43,313 bases of DNA from a virus. Under the pieces are notes generated by a model. That model made no database searches. It was not told the DNA's origin and saw nothing but the letters and a program-made list of their open reading frames with translations. The stretch is from positions 1 through 43,313 of the IMG/VR virus record IMGVR_UViG_3300042323_000446. One strand, given 5' to 3'. Below, in pieces: positions 1 to 8,889 of the stretch; the stretch's first letter is position 1, and every line of letters begins with the position of its first letter. The translations under genes were made by a program, and so were the position numbers.

Positions 1-3000
1 TTCCACTTGTTCCACTTGTTCCTGAAGAACCATCTGTTCCGCTAGTTCCTGAAGAACCATCTGTTCCACTTGTTCCACTTGTTCCTGAAGAACCATCTGT
101 TCCGCTAGTTCCTGAAGAACCATCTGTTCCACTTGTTCCACTTGTTCCTGAAGAACCATCTGTTCCGCTAGTTCCTGAAGAACCATCTGTGCCACTTGTT
201 CCGCTAGTTCCTGAAGAACCATCTGTGCCTGATGTACCACTTGAACCACTTGTTCCGCTAGTTCCTGAAGAACCATCTGTACCTGATGTTCCACTTGAGC
301 CAGATGTTCCGTTAGTTCCTGAAGAACCATCTGTACCACTTGTTCCTGAAGAACCATCTGTACCACTTGAACCACTTGTTCCGCTAGTTCCTGAAGAACC
401 ACTATCACCACTTGAACCTGAACTTCCACTAGTTCCTGAAGAACCACTATCACCACTTGAACCTGAACTTCCACTAGTTCCTGAAGAACCACTATCACCA
501 CTTGAACCTGAACTTCCGCTAGTTCCTGAAGAACCATCTGTACCACTTGTTCCGCTAGTTCCTGAAGAACCATCTGTCCCACTTGTTCCGCTAGTTCCTG
601 AAGAACCATCTGTACCACTTGTTCCGCTAGTTCCTGAAGAACCATCTATTCCACTTGTTCCACTTGTTCCTGAAGAACCGCTATCACCACTTGAACCTGA
701 ACTTCCACTTGAACCAGATGTTCCGCTAGTTCCTGAAGAACCACTATCTCCTGAAGAACCACTTGTTCCGCTAGTTCCTGAAGAACCACTATCACCACTT
801 GAACCTGAACTTCCGCTAGTTCCTGAAGAACCATCTGTTCCACTTGTTCCGCTAGTTCCTGAAGAACCACTATCACCACTTGAACCTGAACTTCCACTTG
901 AACCAGATGTTCCGCTAGTTCCTGAAGAACCGTCATTCCCTGAACTTCCGCTTGAGCCACTTGTTCCTGAAGAACCACTACTTCCACTTGAGCCACTTGT
1001 TCCTGAAGAACCACTTGAACCTGAACTTCCGCTAGTTCCTGAAGAACCACTATCACCACTTGAACCTGAACTTCCGCTAGTTCCTGAAGAACCGCTTGAA
1101 CCTGATGTTCCGCTAGTTCCTGAAGAACCGTTTACCCCACTAATACCACTAGACCCTGATGTTCCGCTAGTTCCTGAAGAACCGTCATTCCCTGAACTTC
1201 CGCTTGAACCACTTGAACCTGAACTTCCACTTGAGCCAGATGTTCCTGAAGAACCACTATCACCACTTGAACCTGAACTTCCACTAGACCCTGATGTTCC
1301 GCTAGTTCCTGAAGAACCGTCATTCCCTGAACTTCCGCTTGAGCCACTTGTTCCTGAAGAACCACTAACACCACTAGACCCTGATGTTCCGCTAGTTCCT
1401 GAAGAACCGTCATTCCCTGAACTTCCACTTGAACCACTAGTTCCTGAAGAACCGTCATTCCCTGAACTTCCACTTGAACCTGAACTTCCACTTGAGCCAG
1501 ATGTTCCGCTAGTTCCTGAAGAACCTGATGTTCCGCTAGTTCCTGAAGAACCGTCATTCCCTGAACTTCCGCTTGAGCCACTTGAACCTGAACTTCCACT
1601 TGAACCTGATGTTCCTGAAGAACCGTCATTCCCTGAACTTCCGCTTGAGCCACTTGTTCCTGAAGAACCACTATCACCACTTGAACCTGAACTTCCGCTA
1701 GTTCCTGAAGAACCACTATCTCCTGAAGAACCGCTTGAGCCTGATGTTCCGCTAGTCCCTGAAGAACCGCTATCTCCTGAAGAACCGCTTGAACCTGAAC
1801 TTCCACTTGAGCCTGATGTTCCGCTAGTTCCTGAAGAACCGTCATTCCCTGAACTTCCGCTTGAACCACTTGAACCTGAACTTCCGCTTGAGCCAGATGT
1901 TCCTGAAGAACCGTCATTCCCTGAACTTCCGCTTGAGCCACTTGTTCCTGAAGAACCACTACTTCCGCTTGAACCTGATGTTCCGCTAGTTCCTGAAGAA
2001 CCACTATCTCCTGAAGAACCGCTTGAGCCTGATGTTCCGCTAGTTCCTGAAGAACCGCTATCTCCTGAAGAACCGCTTGAACCTGAACTTCCGCTTGAAC
2101 CTGATGTTCCACTAGTTCCTGAAGAACCGCTATCACCACTTGAACCTGAACTTCCACTTGAACCTGAAGAACCGCTATCACCTGAAGAACCACTACTACC
2201 GCTTGAACCTGATGTTCCGCTAGTTCCTGAAGAACCGTTCACCCCACTAATACCACTAGACCCTGATGTTCCGCTAGTTCCTGAAGAACCGTTATTTCCT
2301 GAACTTCCACTTGAACCTGAACTTCCGCTTGAGCCAGATGTTCCGCTAGTTCCTGAAGAACCACTACTACCACTTGTTCCGCTAGTTCCTGAACTTCCGT
2401 CATTCCCTGAACTTCCACTTGAACCTGATGTTCCGCTAGTTCCTGAAGAACCACTTGAGCCGGATGTCCCACTTGAACCTGAAGTTCCTGAACCACCCCC
2501 TGATGCGGTAATACCTGTAACAACTACCGTAGTACCATCACTATTATATAAATCTAATTGACTAGTTGCAGAAAAATAAGTTCCCCCTGTTAAACAACAA
2601 TCTTCAGGAAATATTCTCCATCTAGCATTTGTTCTTGTAGTCCCTGATACACCTTCAATAGTTGAACCTGTCCACGCATTTATAAAATTTTGACCTGCAA
2701 CACTATTATTTTTAACTTGGGTGTCATAAGGGTTAAATGTAACCGTACCTGTTGCACCTGTGGCTGCGTTCCATAGTGTTTCATAATTATCAATCTGATA
2801 TTGATATGCAAATCCTGTTTCATTAACATAAGCAATCATACCAATTCTTCTTCTTCCTGATGAAAAATTATCCGAATTTAAATTAATGTATGATGGGTTA
2901 AATGGTGTCCCATTACCAATATATAAATTGATTGGTATTGTGTTTGCGGATAAAGTTTGTAACCCAATTCCCGAAAAGGTTAATGAAAGGTCACTAAGAT

Positions 3001-3127
3001 TAGCAACTTCCATCCATCCACCAATACCAAGCACACTGTAATCTGTGCCTTGTACTGAATTTCTAGCGACAGTATAAGGACCTATTGAAAGTTGAGCATT
3101 TAATGGATTTTTATATGGAAACGGCAT
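1..3127 (-). CDS. Giant collagen-like virion/fibre protein, partial (C-terminus outside window)
   Basis: Reading leftward from the ATG at 3127-3125, the frame stays open to the window edge, so at least 1042 residues are present and no stop is seen. The first ~207 residues are non-repetitive, starting MPFPYKNPLNAQLS, and probably fold as a beta-rich attachment domain. From about residue 208 everything is Gly-X-Y repeat: GTS, GSS, GTD, GND, with rare GIS and GVN. That is about 277 or more triplets, collagen-like but without proline. Collagen-like repeats are common in phage tail fibres and head fibres, so an exposed trimeric fibre is inferred. It is the last gene seen of a leftward adhesin cluster, 29 bp after the Thr-Pro stalk gene. 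No Shine-Dalgarno sequence precedes the ATG. The exact virion location is unknown. Confidence 0.8.
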   Translation of the reverse strand, partial: MPFPYKNPLNAQLSIGPYTVARNSVQGTDYSVLGIGGWMEVANLSDLSLTFSGIGLQTLSANTIPINLYIGNGTPFNPSYINLNSDNFSSGRRRIGMIAYVNETGFAYQYQIDNYETLWNAATGATGTVTFNPYDTQVKNNSVAGQNFINAWTGSTIEGVSGTTRTNARWRIFPEDCCLTGGTYFSATSQLDLYNSDGTTVVVTGITASGGGSGTSGSSGTSGSSGSSGTSGTSGSSGSSGNDGSSGTSGTSGSSGSSGTSGTSGSSGSSGSSGSSGNNGSSGTSGTSGSSGISGVNGSSGTSGTSGSSGSSGSSGDSGSSGSSGSSGSSGDSGSSGTSGTSGSSGSSGSSGSSGDSGSSGTSGTSGSSGSSGDSGSSGTSGTSGSSGSSGSSGTSGSSGSSGNDGSSGTSGSSGSSGSSGSSGSSGNDGSSGTSGTSGSSGSSGSSGSSGDSGSSGTSGTSGSSGSSGDSGSSGTSGSSGSSGDSGSSGTSGSSGSSGNDGSSGTSGSSGSSGSSGSSGSSGNDGSSGTSGTSGSSGTSGTSGSSGSSGSSGSSGNDGSSGTSGSSGSSGNDGSSGTSGTSGSSGVSGSSGTSGSSGSSGNDGSSGTSGTSGSSGSSGSSGDSGSSGTSGSSGSSGSSGSSGSSGNDGSSGTSGTSGSSGISGVNGSSGTSGTSGSSGSSGTSGSSGSSGDSGSSGTSGSSGSSGSSGTSGSSGSSGSSGTSGSSGSSGNDGSSGTSGTSGSSGSSGSSGDSGSSGTSGTSGTDGSSGTSGSSGSSGDSGSSGTSGTSGSSGDSGSSGTSGTSGSSGSSGSSGDSGSSGTSGTSGIDGSSGTSGTSGTDGSSGTSGTSGTDGSSGTSGTSGTDGSSGTSGSSGSSGDSGSSGTSGSSGSSGDSGSSGTSGSSGSSGDSGSSGTSGTSGSSGTDGSSGTSGTDGSSGTNGTSGSSGTSGTDGSSGTSGTSGSSGTSGTDGSSGTSGTSGTDGSSGTSGTDGSSGTSGTSGTDGSSGTSGTDGSSGTSGTSGTDGSSGTSGTDGSSGTSGTSG
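2..2500 (-). repeat. Gly-X-Y collagen-like coding repeat array
   Basis: About 2.5 kb of near-perfect 9-nt units in the minus-strand reading frame encode Gly-(Ser/Thr)-(Ser/Asp) triplets. Units are arranged in higher-order blocks of roughly 27 to 54 nt, such as GND-GSS-GTS and GTS-GSS-GDS. Nearly identical blocks recur many times, so the array can probably change length by recombination and may also be misassembled from short reads. It continues beyond base 1. Confidence 0.92.
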
Positions 3128-3156: not shown

Positions 3157-4497
3157 TTAAGTTTTAGTCTCCCCTTTGAAATAAAAATTATTTGTTGATG
3201 GTGTAGATGGTGGTAATAAAGTCGATACGGAACAATATAATACACGGTAAACTCCCGCAGGAATTGCCGCCCCTGAAGTTACTGTAATGTCAGTAGTTGA
3301 AATTGTTGTTGCCGGAGTTAATAAAAGGTCAAAACTGCAAGGGTATGACATATATCCAACACCTATTGTCATATTGTTCATAACACCCCCAACACCTGAT
3401 AAAGGTATCCACACAGAATAAAAATAATATTCGTTAGGGTTTATATTTAAAGTACTAATTGTAATAGTTTCAAATGTGTATTGGTTAATTGAACATCCAT
3501 ATCCGTCTGTATCTACACCAGGGGATTGTTTAATCAATCCATTAAATGATGTTACTGGTGTCATAAAATTACCATCAGAACCTAAAGTAAATCCTGAGTA
3601 AGAAATATACTTATCCATCATATAACTATAGTAAGGGTTTGTTGGGTCAGCCCATCCACCACTACTATACCCATACCAATCAACATTAGTATCTATAGTA
3701 ACACCATCACTTAAGTAATACATATAACTACCTAATTTATACGCCGATGTTGATGAACCACCATTGTCTTGAGGTTCAGGGACCACATAAGCAAATATTG
3801 GGGGTACTGTTGGCGTAGGAGTTGGTGTTAAGGTTGATGTAGGTGTTGGGGTGTTAGTTGTGGTTGATGTAGGCGTTGGGGTGTTAGTTGGGGTAGGAGT
3901 ATTTGTTGGTGTTTTTGTTGGTGTAGGTGTTACAGGTGTTGGTGTTACTGTTGGCGTAGGTGTTACAGGCGTTGGTGTTACTGTTGGTGTTTGTGTTGGT
4001 GTTGGTGTAGATGTTGCACAAGGGTTATATGTTGGAGTAGGAGTTGAAGTTGGGGTTGGTCTTGGAGTTTTACTTGGTTTAGGACAACCACAAGGATTTG
4101 TACAAGTTGCACTTGGTGTTGGGGTATTGGTTGGAGTATTGGTTGGCGTGGGGGTAACTGTTGGGGTTGGAGTCGGAACCTTACATGGGTCTAAAGTTGG
4201 GGTTGGAGTATTTGTTGGTGTTACCGTCGGTGTACTTGTCGGTGTATTTGTTGGCGTTGGTGTTGGTGTCGGTGTTGGTCTAGCAACAGATAAGAAGTTA
4301 GGACAGTCTGAATTAACCGATAAAATAGTGTAAGTCCCATAAATTTCTCTTGGGGGTATTAATAAGTCGGGTTCAAATAAAAAAGGTAATAATACATCAC
4401 CTAAATTAATCGCATCCATACTGTTGTCAGGTTTAAATACGACATTAACAATTTGACCATCATAATTGGTACTAGATATTACAATTGTTTCGTTCAT
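3157..4497 (-). CDS. Thr-Pro-rich stalk structural protein
   Basis: This 446-residue protein has three parts. An N-terminal domain of about 70 residues starts [15 protein letters not shown] stalk from about residue 72 to 230 is built of [12 protein letters not shown] and TVTPTP repeats, interrupted by two short Cys-containing islands (LDPCKVP and [10 protein letters not shown]). A C-terminal beta-rich domain of about 210 residues is rich in Tyr, Gly and Thr. Such proline-threonine stalks hold surface domains away from a virion or cell. Its ATG overlaps the stop of the upstream 78-residue gene (ATGA), so the two are translationally coupled. No enzymatic motif is visible. I infer a tail or capsid decoration protein; no specific family is recognised. 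Confidence 0.8.
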
Positions 4498-5241: not shown

Positions 5242-8200
5242 TTAGAAAGGTTTCTCTATTGCTAAACAGATTTCACCCCTTTCTATTATTAGTCTTTTCA
5301 TATCTGAAAAACTTATATAGGCATGTCCTGAAACTCCCCAAGCTTTCCCCCAACTATTTTTAATTCTAAATTGTTTTGTGATGGTGTTCACTCCATTAAT
5401 AACATAAGCGTGTCCTCCCGCAATATGTCCACTTAAACGAATTAAACCATTTTTATTAGGAAAAAACATATTATAATACCAATTGGTTCCAACAACGACT
5501 GGTCCAACATTTAACACAGTATTAATTAGTGTGTTAATATCAAACGCCCATAAGTATGATGATATTTTACCTGAACTCATTAGATATTTTGCACCACCTC
5601 TAACAGACGTACCGTTATACCTTTCACCCGGCCATTCATCAACCTTTTGAGCTTCACGATAAATCAACGATGGTTGGATTATTGGTAAAGCTCCTCTATG
5701 AGTTATTGGCCCATCACAAATCCAATGTGCCCAAGCATAACCAACACATTGCGGTGTGTTGCCTTGATTACCCCACCAAACATTACCATCCCATTCTTTT
5801 TTAGTTATAGTTGTTTTAGGTATTGTTAATTTATCTTGAATTAAATATTTGTTATCTCTTTTGTCCTCAATAAATATTCTACCTAATTTTTGCTCATTAA
5901 ATAAAGTTAGATTATTTGGGTCACAATCACAATTGATATCAACAACTGTTACAGTTCCTCCACCATTAAGTTTAATTACATTGATAGCACATTTATAAGT
6001 TATGGTAACATATAATGGTACATCAATAACTTCAACAGTATTATCACAATATAAAATTTGATACGTTGAACCAGTTCCAGGTCCAAATCCACTATATAAT
6101 TGGAATGTTTTGCAACAAGGTGAACAATCTCCAATACCGGTAGTCGTAAGAAAAAGTGGACCCTCACTACCACTACCGCCACCATATAGACAACTACCTA
6201 TAAGACTTGGTAGTGCCACCCATTGAGCCATTGACCCAATTGGTGTTGGACTATTTATAGGAAGATATGCGAGTGGGTCAGGTAATGGATAATATGTGGT
6301 CATATCCTCTAAAATCCAATAATTATTTATATTATCCCAAGAAATCCTCATTAATAAGGTGGGGGGTGCGAGAGCAAAATAAGTAAAATAATATGATGAT
6401 TTACCATTAATCTGAGGTGAAGGATTTATATTTGATGGTAATACAATTGTACCACTACAAGTCGTTCCTTCATCAATAAAACGAATACACTCTCCAGGTG
6501 TATAAACCGTAGGCGTAGGCGTAGGTGTTGGTGTTGAAGTTGGTGTTGAAGTTGGGGGCCAGCTTACCGATGGTTGTTTTGTTGGTGTAGGCGTTGGCGA
6601 ATATGTGGTTGTAGTTGTTGTTGGTGAATATGTGGTTGTAGTTGTTGTTGGTGAATATGTGGTTGTAGTTGTTGTTGTTAAATTTGAGGTTGTAGTTGTT
6701 GTTGTTAAATTTGCCGTGGTGGTTGTTGTGGTTGTCTCATCGGATATTTTGTAGGTAAAGTCGTTAGGTAAACAAACCGATGTTGAGCAGTCAGGACAAT
6801 CAGGATTAAACATTCTGAAAATATTTTTTAATAAATTAAAGTTGTGTTTTACCTCAGGTGCCGATAATGGGGTAACATACATTCTAAATTGTGAAATAGC
6901 ACCATCAAAAGTTCCCGCAAAATTTTGCTCAATTAATATATTAGTTTTTAATCCACTAAATGTTGTTCCTGATAAATCATTAATTGGGAAATTTTCAGGG
7001 TCTTGTATATATGGTCCGTAAGGTTGTGTTATTGATGAAAAAGTTAAATTTTCTCTAAGTCCTTGAGTACCCCCACCCCACGATATATTAAACGGAACCC
7101 CAACTTGTTTTTCTTTGTCAGTATCTAATCCTCTTGGGATGATTTCCTCAAAATTTTCTATAGTATGGAATAACTTACCATTAACATAAATTTTAAGTCT
7201 TCCGTTTCTGTATAATTTATCAATTAACCATTTTTCATTTAACCTGACCAGTTCGATTTGTTCTGATGGTTTACAGTCAATTTGTGTGTATGGTACAGTT
7301 ATTAATGACGATGCATTATTGGCTAGTGACTCTAAATAAAGTTTTTCAGTTATATCACCAAGTCCTCCTCGATACCATAAATCGCAAGTATCTAACCATG
7401 TATATCTTTCCCATACCGCGTCTACTTGGAACCAATGTTCCTCATCTAACCACGCAGGATTCTCTAATAAACATGTAGGGTAAATTGGCGGCGTACAATA
7501 ATCAACAATAGTGTGTCCTGTAGTGTAAGTAATTCCACTTGTTTCACAAGAGCCTGTAGTAACACAATCTCCTGTAAATTTTAACATTCTAACACCAATA
7601 CCAGGGTTTTTTGGGTCGCCACATAATCTAAAAGATAACGCGTTTGACATAGAATCATATATTGGGTTTGTCTCACAAGTATTTTCAATTGATGTAAATC
7701 CTGTATTACAATTATAACAAGTCGTGGTTGGTGTACAAACATCACATGATGGAGAGCAAACAGGTGGTAGTTCACAATCAGGTATTGGGGTTGGCGTTGG
7801 TGAAGGTGTTGGGGTTGGTTCAATAACCGTACTACATACGTGTGTTTGACACTCCCATCCACAAGTTTCGCATGGGTCTAAATTACAATCACAACCACAC
7901 GTAATTTTTTTTTGTGGGTCTCCCTTACAACTACCACAACCATAATTAACGTGAGGGTCATGGATATTATTCACTGACCTAGGTGGATAAACAAAAATAC
8001 ATCTACTATCCGTAATTGTTCTATTACAACATGCACATGTTTGTAGTTCAGTTAAACCTGATGTAACTCTATTATAACCTGAAAAACATAATGGACTACC
8101 ACTTGCATGGTGATAAAATTTATTTTCAGCTCTAGTCCCAAAATAAAAAAAAGTATTTTTATTATTTGGATAAATTTCATTAAGAGTTGTTTCATTTGGT

Positions 8201-8889
8201 AATGGAGTGTGTTCGTTGAATAATCTTGGTTTTAATACCATCTCAACCGACCACCCTTTATTCATTCTTTCAGGGAAAACTTCATAATCAAACCCAAATA
8301 ACTTATAAAATCCTTGATAAAACCCACCGTATAATTCGTGGTACCTACCTTCAAAAGGGCTTGATTTACTAACAACTTCGTATAACACGGTTTTATTGAA
8401 TCCTGAAAATCTTACATTAGGTGACATAGTGTGACCTGTAACTTGGTGTAACTTAAGTCTTCGGTCATAGTACATTCTATTAAATTTCAAATAATCAGAG
8501 TATAATCCTTTAGTAAATGTTATCGTTTCACCGGTCATTTGGTCGACTAATCCATTATCAATACCTGTTAACCCAATATCACATGATGTTGATGATGAAT
8601 AACAAGTTAAATCTTCATTATTTGGGTTGTAATAATTTTGAGATACAAAAATATTATTATTATTGTATTGTTTATACAAAAGTGTTTGATTTTGAACACT
8701 TAAAGGATTGTTAATGTCAAAATAAATTGGGAGTCTGTCTCCATATGTTTGAGCAATCAAATATGGTGAAAAAACAACTTCTTGATTGTAGTCTTGTTCA
8801 TCTGAGGTCAAAGACATATCACTAGAGTCTAAATTAAGTTTTAGAGACCAATTTGGACGATAATACTGATTTATATTTTGACTTGCCAT
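5242..8889 (-). CDS. Multidomain adhesin with ConA/LamG-like domain and C-terminal papain-like protease
   Basis: This protein has 1215 residues. Residues 1-260 look like an attachment domain. Residues ~265-450 are Cys-rich, with CxxC clusters and a short PTPTPSPTPTP linker near 355-370. Residues ~480-710 look like a ConA/LamG domain (KIYVNGKLFHTIENF; GTFDGAISQFRMYVTPLSA). Residues ~716-797 form a Thr-run and Thr-Pro stalk. After a further beta domain, residues ~1030-1215 match peptidase family C1 (papain). The oxyanion Gln1042 (NQG), nucleophile Cys1048 (QCVGYAWA), His1160 (GGHAYVINGV) and Asn1178 (KNSWGKAWG) are all present with papain-like spacing. No I29 propeptide is seen. The likely role is a tail adhesin that binds glycans and cuts host surface protein, or one that matures itself. 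A terminator follows the gene. Confidence 0.85.
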   Translation of the reverse strand: MASQNINQYYRPNWSLKLNLDSSDMSLTSDEQDYNQEVVFSPYLIAQTYGDRLPIYFDINNPLSVQNQTLLYKQYNNNNIFVSQNYYNPNNEDLTCYSSSTSCDIGLTGIDNGLVDQMTGETITFTKGLYSDYLKFNRMYYDRRLKLHQVTGHTMSPNVRFSGFNKTVLYEVVSKSSPFEGRYHELYGGFYQGFYKLFGFDYEVFPERMNKGWSVEMVLKPRLFNEHTPLPNETTLNEIYPNNKNTFFYFGTRAENKFYHHASGSPLCFSGYNRVTSGLTELQTCACCNRTITDSRCIFVYPPRSVNNIHDPHVNYGCGSCKGDPQKKITCGCDCNLDPCETCGWECQTHVCSTVIEPTPTPSPTPTPIPDCELPPVCSPSCDVCTPTTTCYNCNTGFTSIENTCETNPIYDSMSNALSFRLCGDPKNPGIGVRMLKFTGDCVTTGSCETSGITYTTGHTIVDYCTPPIYPTCLLENPAWLDEEHWFQVDAVWERYTWLDTCDLWYRGGLGDITEKLYLESLANNASSLITVPYTQIDCKPSEQIELVRLNEKWLIDKLYRNGRLKIYVNGKLFHTIENFEEIIPRGLDTDKEKQVGVPFNISWGGGTQGLRENLTFSSITQPYGPYIQDPENFPINDLSGTTFSGLKTNILIEQNFAGTFDGAISQFRMYVTPLSAPEVKHNFNLLKNIFRMFNPDCPDCSTSVCLPNDFTYKISDETTTTTTTANLTTTTTTSNLTTTTTTTYSPTTTTTTYSPTTTTTTYSPTPTPTKQPSVSWPPTSTPTSTPTPTPTPTVYTPGECIRFIDEGTTCSGTIVLPSNINPSPQINGKSSYYFTYFALAPPTLLMRISWDNINNYWILEDMTTYYPLPDPLAYLPINSPTPIGSMAQWVALPSLIGSCLYGGGSGSEGPLFLTTTGIGDCSPCCKTFQLYSGFGPGTGSTYQILYCDNTVEVIDVPLYVTITYKCAINVIKLNGGGTVTVVDINCDCDPNNLTLFNEQKLGRIFIEDKRDNKYLIQDKLTIPKTTITKKEWDGNVWWGNQGNTPQCVGYAWAHWICDGPITHRGALPIIQPSLIYREAQKVDEWPGERYNGTSVRGGAKYLMSSGKISSYLWAFDINTLINTVLNVGPVVVGTNWYYNMFFPNKNGLIRLSGHIAGGHAYVINGVNTITKQFRIKNSWGKAWGVSGHAYISFSDMKRLIIERGEICLAIEKPF
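6599..6730 (-). repeat. 27-nt tandem repeats encoding the Thr-rich stalk
   Basis: Three near-identical 27-nt units, followed by two diverged ones, encode TTTTTTYSP-type and TTTTTTSNL-type segments of the adhesin stalk. Copy number could vary between relatives. Confidence 0.8.

Follow-up and report, generated by a model that had tools for sequence, protein, structure and literature searches.

Why should the adhesin of a phage end in an enzyme that cuts proteins? The question is raised by a gene on the virus record IMGVR_UViG_3300042323_000446, the whole of which (43,313 bases) was analysed and is referred to as the window. An original prediction had assigned a papain-like protease to the end of the encoded protein and had proposed that it either cuts host surface proteins during adsorption or serves in maturing the fibres of the phage itself. 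Terminase, portal, head protease and major head protein of the window match phage families and make up a T4-like gene set. A role of the papain-like enzyme in head maturation was considered and rejected because a T4-type head protease is already present. By terminase and capsid, the nearest cultured phages are Microcystis phage Mel-JY01 and the Flavobacterium immuto phages, with 27-43% sequence identity. The Bacteroidota-type promoter motif, which was used as a host hint, gave no signal in the window (2 matches versus 1.8 expected). The adhesin gene adjoins genes for a Pro/Thr-stalk protein and a collagen-repeat protein, and two small ORFs are also found downstream of it on the same strand. 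The features are as follows.

5242..8889, minus strand: adhesin gene (1215 aa), composed of backbone, Thr/Pro stalk, a possibly beta-rich domain and the papain module
6742..8889, minus strand: N-terminal backbone, residues 1-716, conserved at 61-94% identity whether or not the relative carries papain
6505..6735, minus strand: Thr/Pro-rich stalk, residues 719-795, read from the sequence
5908..6504, minus strand: domain that separates stalk and protease (residues 796-994), also retained by the papain-less L007 group
5242..5886, minus strand: papain module of peptidase family C1 (residues 1002-1215), which moves between carriers as a unit
5839..5886, minus strand: conserved pro-segment-like element LGRIFIEDKRDNKYLI, residues 1002-1017
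5764..5766, minus strand: Gln1042, oxyanion-hole Gln, codon CAA, motif GNQGNTPQC
5746..5748, minus strand: Cys1048, catalytic nucleophile, codon TGT, motif QCVGYAWA
5410..5412, minus strand: His1160, catalytic, codon CAC, motif GGHAYV
5356..5358, minus strand: Asn1178, catalytic, codon AAT, motif KNSWGKAWG
3157..4497, minus strand: fibre-like protein with Pro/Thr stalk, downstream of the adhesin
2..3127, minus strand: collagen-repeat protein, downstream, cut by the window edge (Pfam Collagen, 4e-117)

It is probable that the collagen-repeat protein shares one tail/adhesion gene cluster with the adhesin. It consists mostly of Gly-Ser-Thr collagen repeats; as a by-product of these, the reverse strand of the region is also open, reading as a Pro/Glu/Val repeat.

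The assignment to the papain family is upheld by several independent profiles. Pfam Peptidase_C1 (PF00112) matches the window protein with 23.7 bits, above the cut-off of 20.7, which is also passed by the carriers L119, L128, L101, L105, L094 and L142; NCBIfam had no match on the window protein. The phage family phrog_16701 ('peptidase') matches residues 1000-1213 with an E-value of 8e-51, covering positions 3-232 of a profile of 234. When a profile of the relatives was compared to solved structures, the best match was xylellain (3ois, 5e-10), followed by cathepsins B and K. Gln1042, Cys1048, His1160 and Asn1178 are invariant across an alignment of 49 relatives, occur in the order of family C1 and are accompanied by the NSWG motif. 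All four catalytic residues, for which the codons could be located, are thus confirmed together with their motifs, and so is a complete papain-type domain as the C-terminal part of a probable tail adhesin. In nucleotide comparisons, the closest pairs have a dN/dS of about 0.06-0.2. Taken over all 201 usable pairs, the median rises to 0.29, a value made less reliable by saturation. As the catalytic residues are invariant and dN/dS is well below 1, the module looks intact and selected, and we classify it as a predicted family C1 cysteine peptidase of the short, xylellain-like type. That it is a worn-out or binding-only domain is, for the same two reasons, highly improbable to us; what would fit this are shortened ends in L038 and L062, which may be assembly errors. 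In these two loci (L038:8197-8715, L062:8203-8829) the C-terminal end of the papain has been lost, either by a reading frame change or by an assembly error, and the L038 papain stops ahead of the catalytic Asn.

The domain is larger than predicted. Its start had been placed at 5800, while the module begins about 29 residues earlier, at residue 1002 (5886), because a conserved LGRxxxxDxRDxxYLI segment that precedes the enzyme core is part of the module. In the 49 aligned relatives, no variation occurs at four positions of this segment (module residues R3, D8, R10 and D11). The segment is kept even in L043, L075, L077 and L078, in which segment and core are set apart by as many as about 70 residues of Pro/Thr linker. 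A D.RD or D.RS element occurs at the equivalent place in stand-alone phage and bacterial enzymes, and we regard the segment as a putative N-terminal element common to short phage and bacterial C1 peptidases. An inhibitory propeptide had been stated to be missing. This holds true for the Inhibitor_I29 prodomain, which has no Pfam match on the window protein, but not for pro-segments in general, as the conserved segment is present. It probably docks onto the enzyme core and may serve as a latch that is released by displacement or cleavage of the segment. In a 2013 paper on xylellain, part of the N-terminal sequence is said to cover the active site; the conserved segment described here would be consistent with this.

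The protein on which the enzyme sits is probably a modular adhesin and part of the phage tail. The predicted order of a ConA/LamG-like domain, a stalk and the protease had to be revised: the stalk (residues 719-795) is confirmed, while an additional domain of about 200 residues, probably beta-rich, intervenes between stalk and protease, and the LamG assignment is weak. On the window protein, Laminin_G_3 scores 15.8 bits, under the curated cut-off of 27.6, with the LamG/ConA-like region restricted to residues 657-681; it matches 6 of 33 relatives at E-values up to 0.1 (best 7.5e-4). The N-terminal backbone matched nothing in the profile search against solved structures, nor did it have a significant relative in 50,697 phage records (cultured phages). 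Because of this, the term 'adhesin' is based on the architecture and on the weak LamG match. The backbone contains many invariant cysteines between residues 280 and 470 (e.g. C285, C287, C288, C297, C343 and C352), an uncommon feature in proteins that assemble in the cytoplasm; they are possibly metal-binding.

We scanned viral contigs with the whole window protein and found 78 loci with the N-terminal backbone. When the window locus is included, 34 ORFs with the papain module (22 distinct proteins) stand against 45 without it (21 distinct proteins), counts that reflect how the loci were found and are not prevalences. Some papain-less forms end soon past residue 716, others have DUF285 repeats or long Pro/Thr tracts. 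The closest comparison is provided by the L007 group (nine contigs), which is 95% identical over residues 1-718 and has no papain module. These adhesins end at CDCDPNNLSI, exactly where the window protein runs into the module, and the next gene begins directly. On the backbone tree, the module appears or disappears about 8 times, with at least 4 of these changes being forced by well-supported branches. A sister of the papain-bearing L075 and L077 (L063:5983-11919) has a long run of DUF285 repeats at its C-terminus instead. Enzyme and repeat domains substitute for one another on one backbone.

A protease that matures the phage's own fibres, cutting itself or a neighbouring fibre during assembly, would account for the fusion and for the pro-segment-like element, and the Pro/Thr linker between element and core in four relatives could be cut. 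Auto-processing is common among C1 enzymes. We nevertheless consider fibre maturation, the second function of the original prediction, unlikely. A 95% identical adhesin exists without the module, and the large records checked encode no papain elsewhere; the backbone-module junction varies and lacks a conserved cut site outside the module; the phage has a separate T4-type head protease; and the module is found on at least six unrelated carriers.

These carriers were revealed by a scan with the module only, in which further N-termini were encountered, namely a KKNxTLP-type protein, an SDNF-type fibre protein and three other short proteins. With the adhesin counted, there are at least six unrelated carrier types that have the module in frame at the C-terminus, in addition to stand-alone genes. 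The papain module also occurs on relatives of the N-terminal type of the protein encoded at 3157..4497 (MPSVVILKSDNF...; L114 and L128). In the papain tree, about 10 carrier changes are observed versus 22.6 with shuffled labels. The exchange can be seen at the DNA level in L101, L105 and L119, which share 6.7 kb of 93-96% identical DNA. This shared stretch sets in 33-74 bases upstream of the module and reaches into the DNA polymerase gene, whereas the carriers fused to the module bear no relation to each other. For L101 and L119, identity is 93% over the 6.7 kb and starts 33 bases ahead of the module. The carrier breakpoint thus falls immediately ahead of the conserved segment, in support of the module limits given above.

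The module is restricted in number. Exactly one papain copy was found in 19 of 19 records, most of them over 100 kb, whatever the carrier. In 20 of 21 records with a papain-less adhesin there is no papain copy anywhere in the record, absences that are provisional because records may be fragments. One record of 322 kb (G005) has the adhesin without papain, and its single copy sits on the KKN carrier. With one copy per record, the module looks like an accessory function carried by a single probable tail protein.

Stand-alone papain forms occur in the same gene region (L115, L120, L121 and L133), so that covalent display is not always needed. In three of these (L115:5693-6648, L133:5693-6648 and L120:4760-5715), the gene is found close behind a gene for 91 residues. 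A small protein (MIKLI.RTTD.K...) is encoded by a separate gene that overlaps the papain gene (ATGA) in L121:5636-6663, while a protein of the same type is fused to papain as one protein in L094:737-1663, a hint that the two work together.

Could the enzyme work inside the infected cell, e.g. on host or defence proteins, with the fusion ensuring late expression or delivery? Stand-alone relatives occur in many phages and, as read from their sequences, have no obvious signal peptide. The C1 peptidase of jumbo phage XacN1, also stand-alone, has been listed among the potential lytic enzymes and is unreported in virions (PMC5852040), so that an action within the cell is possible for related phage enzymes. 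For the module described here we consider an intracellular role quite unlikely, since a cytoplasmic enzyme would not be expected to be fused in frame, time and again, to the ends of probable tail proteins, and since nearly all carriers are encoded within the tail-gene region.

That the C1 family occurs in phages as stand-alone proteins is already known, and acquisition of xylellain-type C1A enzymes by Myoviridae and Siphoviridae has been reported (PMC10380794). Relatives of the module are present in 52 phage records. The phrog_16701 peptidases (XacN1 ORF382 and those from RAS14 and from Gordonia, Streptomyces and Mycobacterium phages) match the module over its full length and have the N-terminal D.R(D/S) element in common with it, but are stand-alone in the three records inspected, whereas the module is fused. 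Xylellain, a short bacterial C1A enzyme, has the same order of catalytic residues but is likewise a stand-alone protein and not the C-terminus of a phage protein. A search that started from the distant phage enzymes returned a mostly stand-alone set, and the top loci of a mixed profile were those already found. In 40 distant viral loci, the C1 domain is preceded by at most about 75 residues in all but one (N-termini were assigned mechanically). New is the repeated C-terminal fusion of a C1 module to probable tail proteins within one phage clade. The open-access literature searched contained no account of a phage fibre with a papain-type domain, which is not proof of absence.

One distant virus (L266:2789-4639) codes for a 617-residue protein in which a GH25 muramidase, a G5 domain and a C1 peptidase are combined. 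This fusion is an independent link to the cell envelope; it makes an envelope substrate worth considering and leaves undecided whether that would be protein or peptidoglycan. It would also fit a cell-wall enzyme that cuts the peptide links of peptidoglycan as NlpC/P60 or CHAP lysins do, as would a relative from Gordonia phage GMA2, which is annotated as 'putative lysin', and the NlpC/P60 domains found on phage tails (PMC7824862). However, the Gln-Cys-His-Asn set and the NSWG motif are those of family C1, and neither NlpC/P60 nor CHAP had a family match on the window protein in profile searches, which makes a cell-wall enzyme very unlikely in our view.

Phage tails are well known to bear enzymes that cut sugars and cell wall. 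The depolymerases and the tail-tip M23 or NlpC/P60 hydrolases resemble the present case in being enzymes on tail proteins for passing the host surface, but they act on polysaccharide or peptidoglycan, whereas the module belongs to a protein-cutting family. Another protease at the C-terminus of fibres or spikes is the S74 intramolecular chaperone protease of tail spikes. It differs in being a self-cutting Ser/Lys enzyme with a fold unlike papain, and S74 gave no match on the window protein in the profile search.

The reading that fits the comparative data best is the cutting of host surface proteins. With moderate confidence, we favour an accessory, displayed protease acting on such proteins over fibre maturation. 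The carriers would be virion proteins with the papain module displayed at the tip, and during adsorption the module would cut proteins of the outer surface of the host, be it to clear a protein layer, to reach a buried receptor or to obtain release from a decoy. What calls most for caution here are the stand-alone forms of the same gene region and the C1 peptidase of XacN1. More tentatively, and with considerable reservation, one might picture a portable protease tip, with one module per phage that is re-attached in frame to the outermost tail protein. Protein-cutting would then be a swappable part of host recognition, similar to depolymerases, and the N-terminal segment would be a tethered latch that is opened upon host contact. 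If a tail-borne protein-cutting enzyme is real, host surface proteins become a barrier or receptor that is actively processed by phages, and it could be clearly tested why some phages of this group carry papain while near-identical ones do not. The fusion arrangement would surprise a phage specialist and is directly testable; the function assigned to it is inferred.

C1-like proteins were also encountered outside the viral records. Closely similar proteins of 352 residues (L160 and L161, 5128-6183) occur in MAGs labelled Alphaproteobacteria and Flavobacteriales, a likeness that suggests mis-binning or recent transfer.
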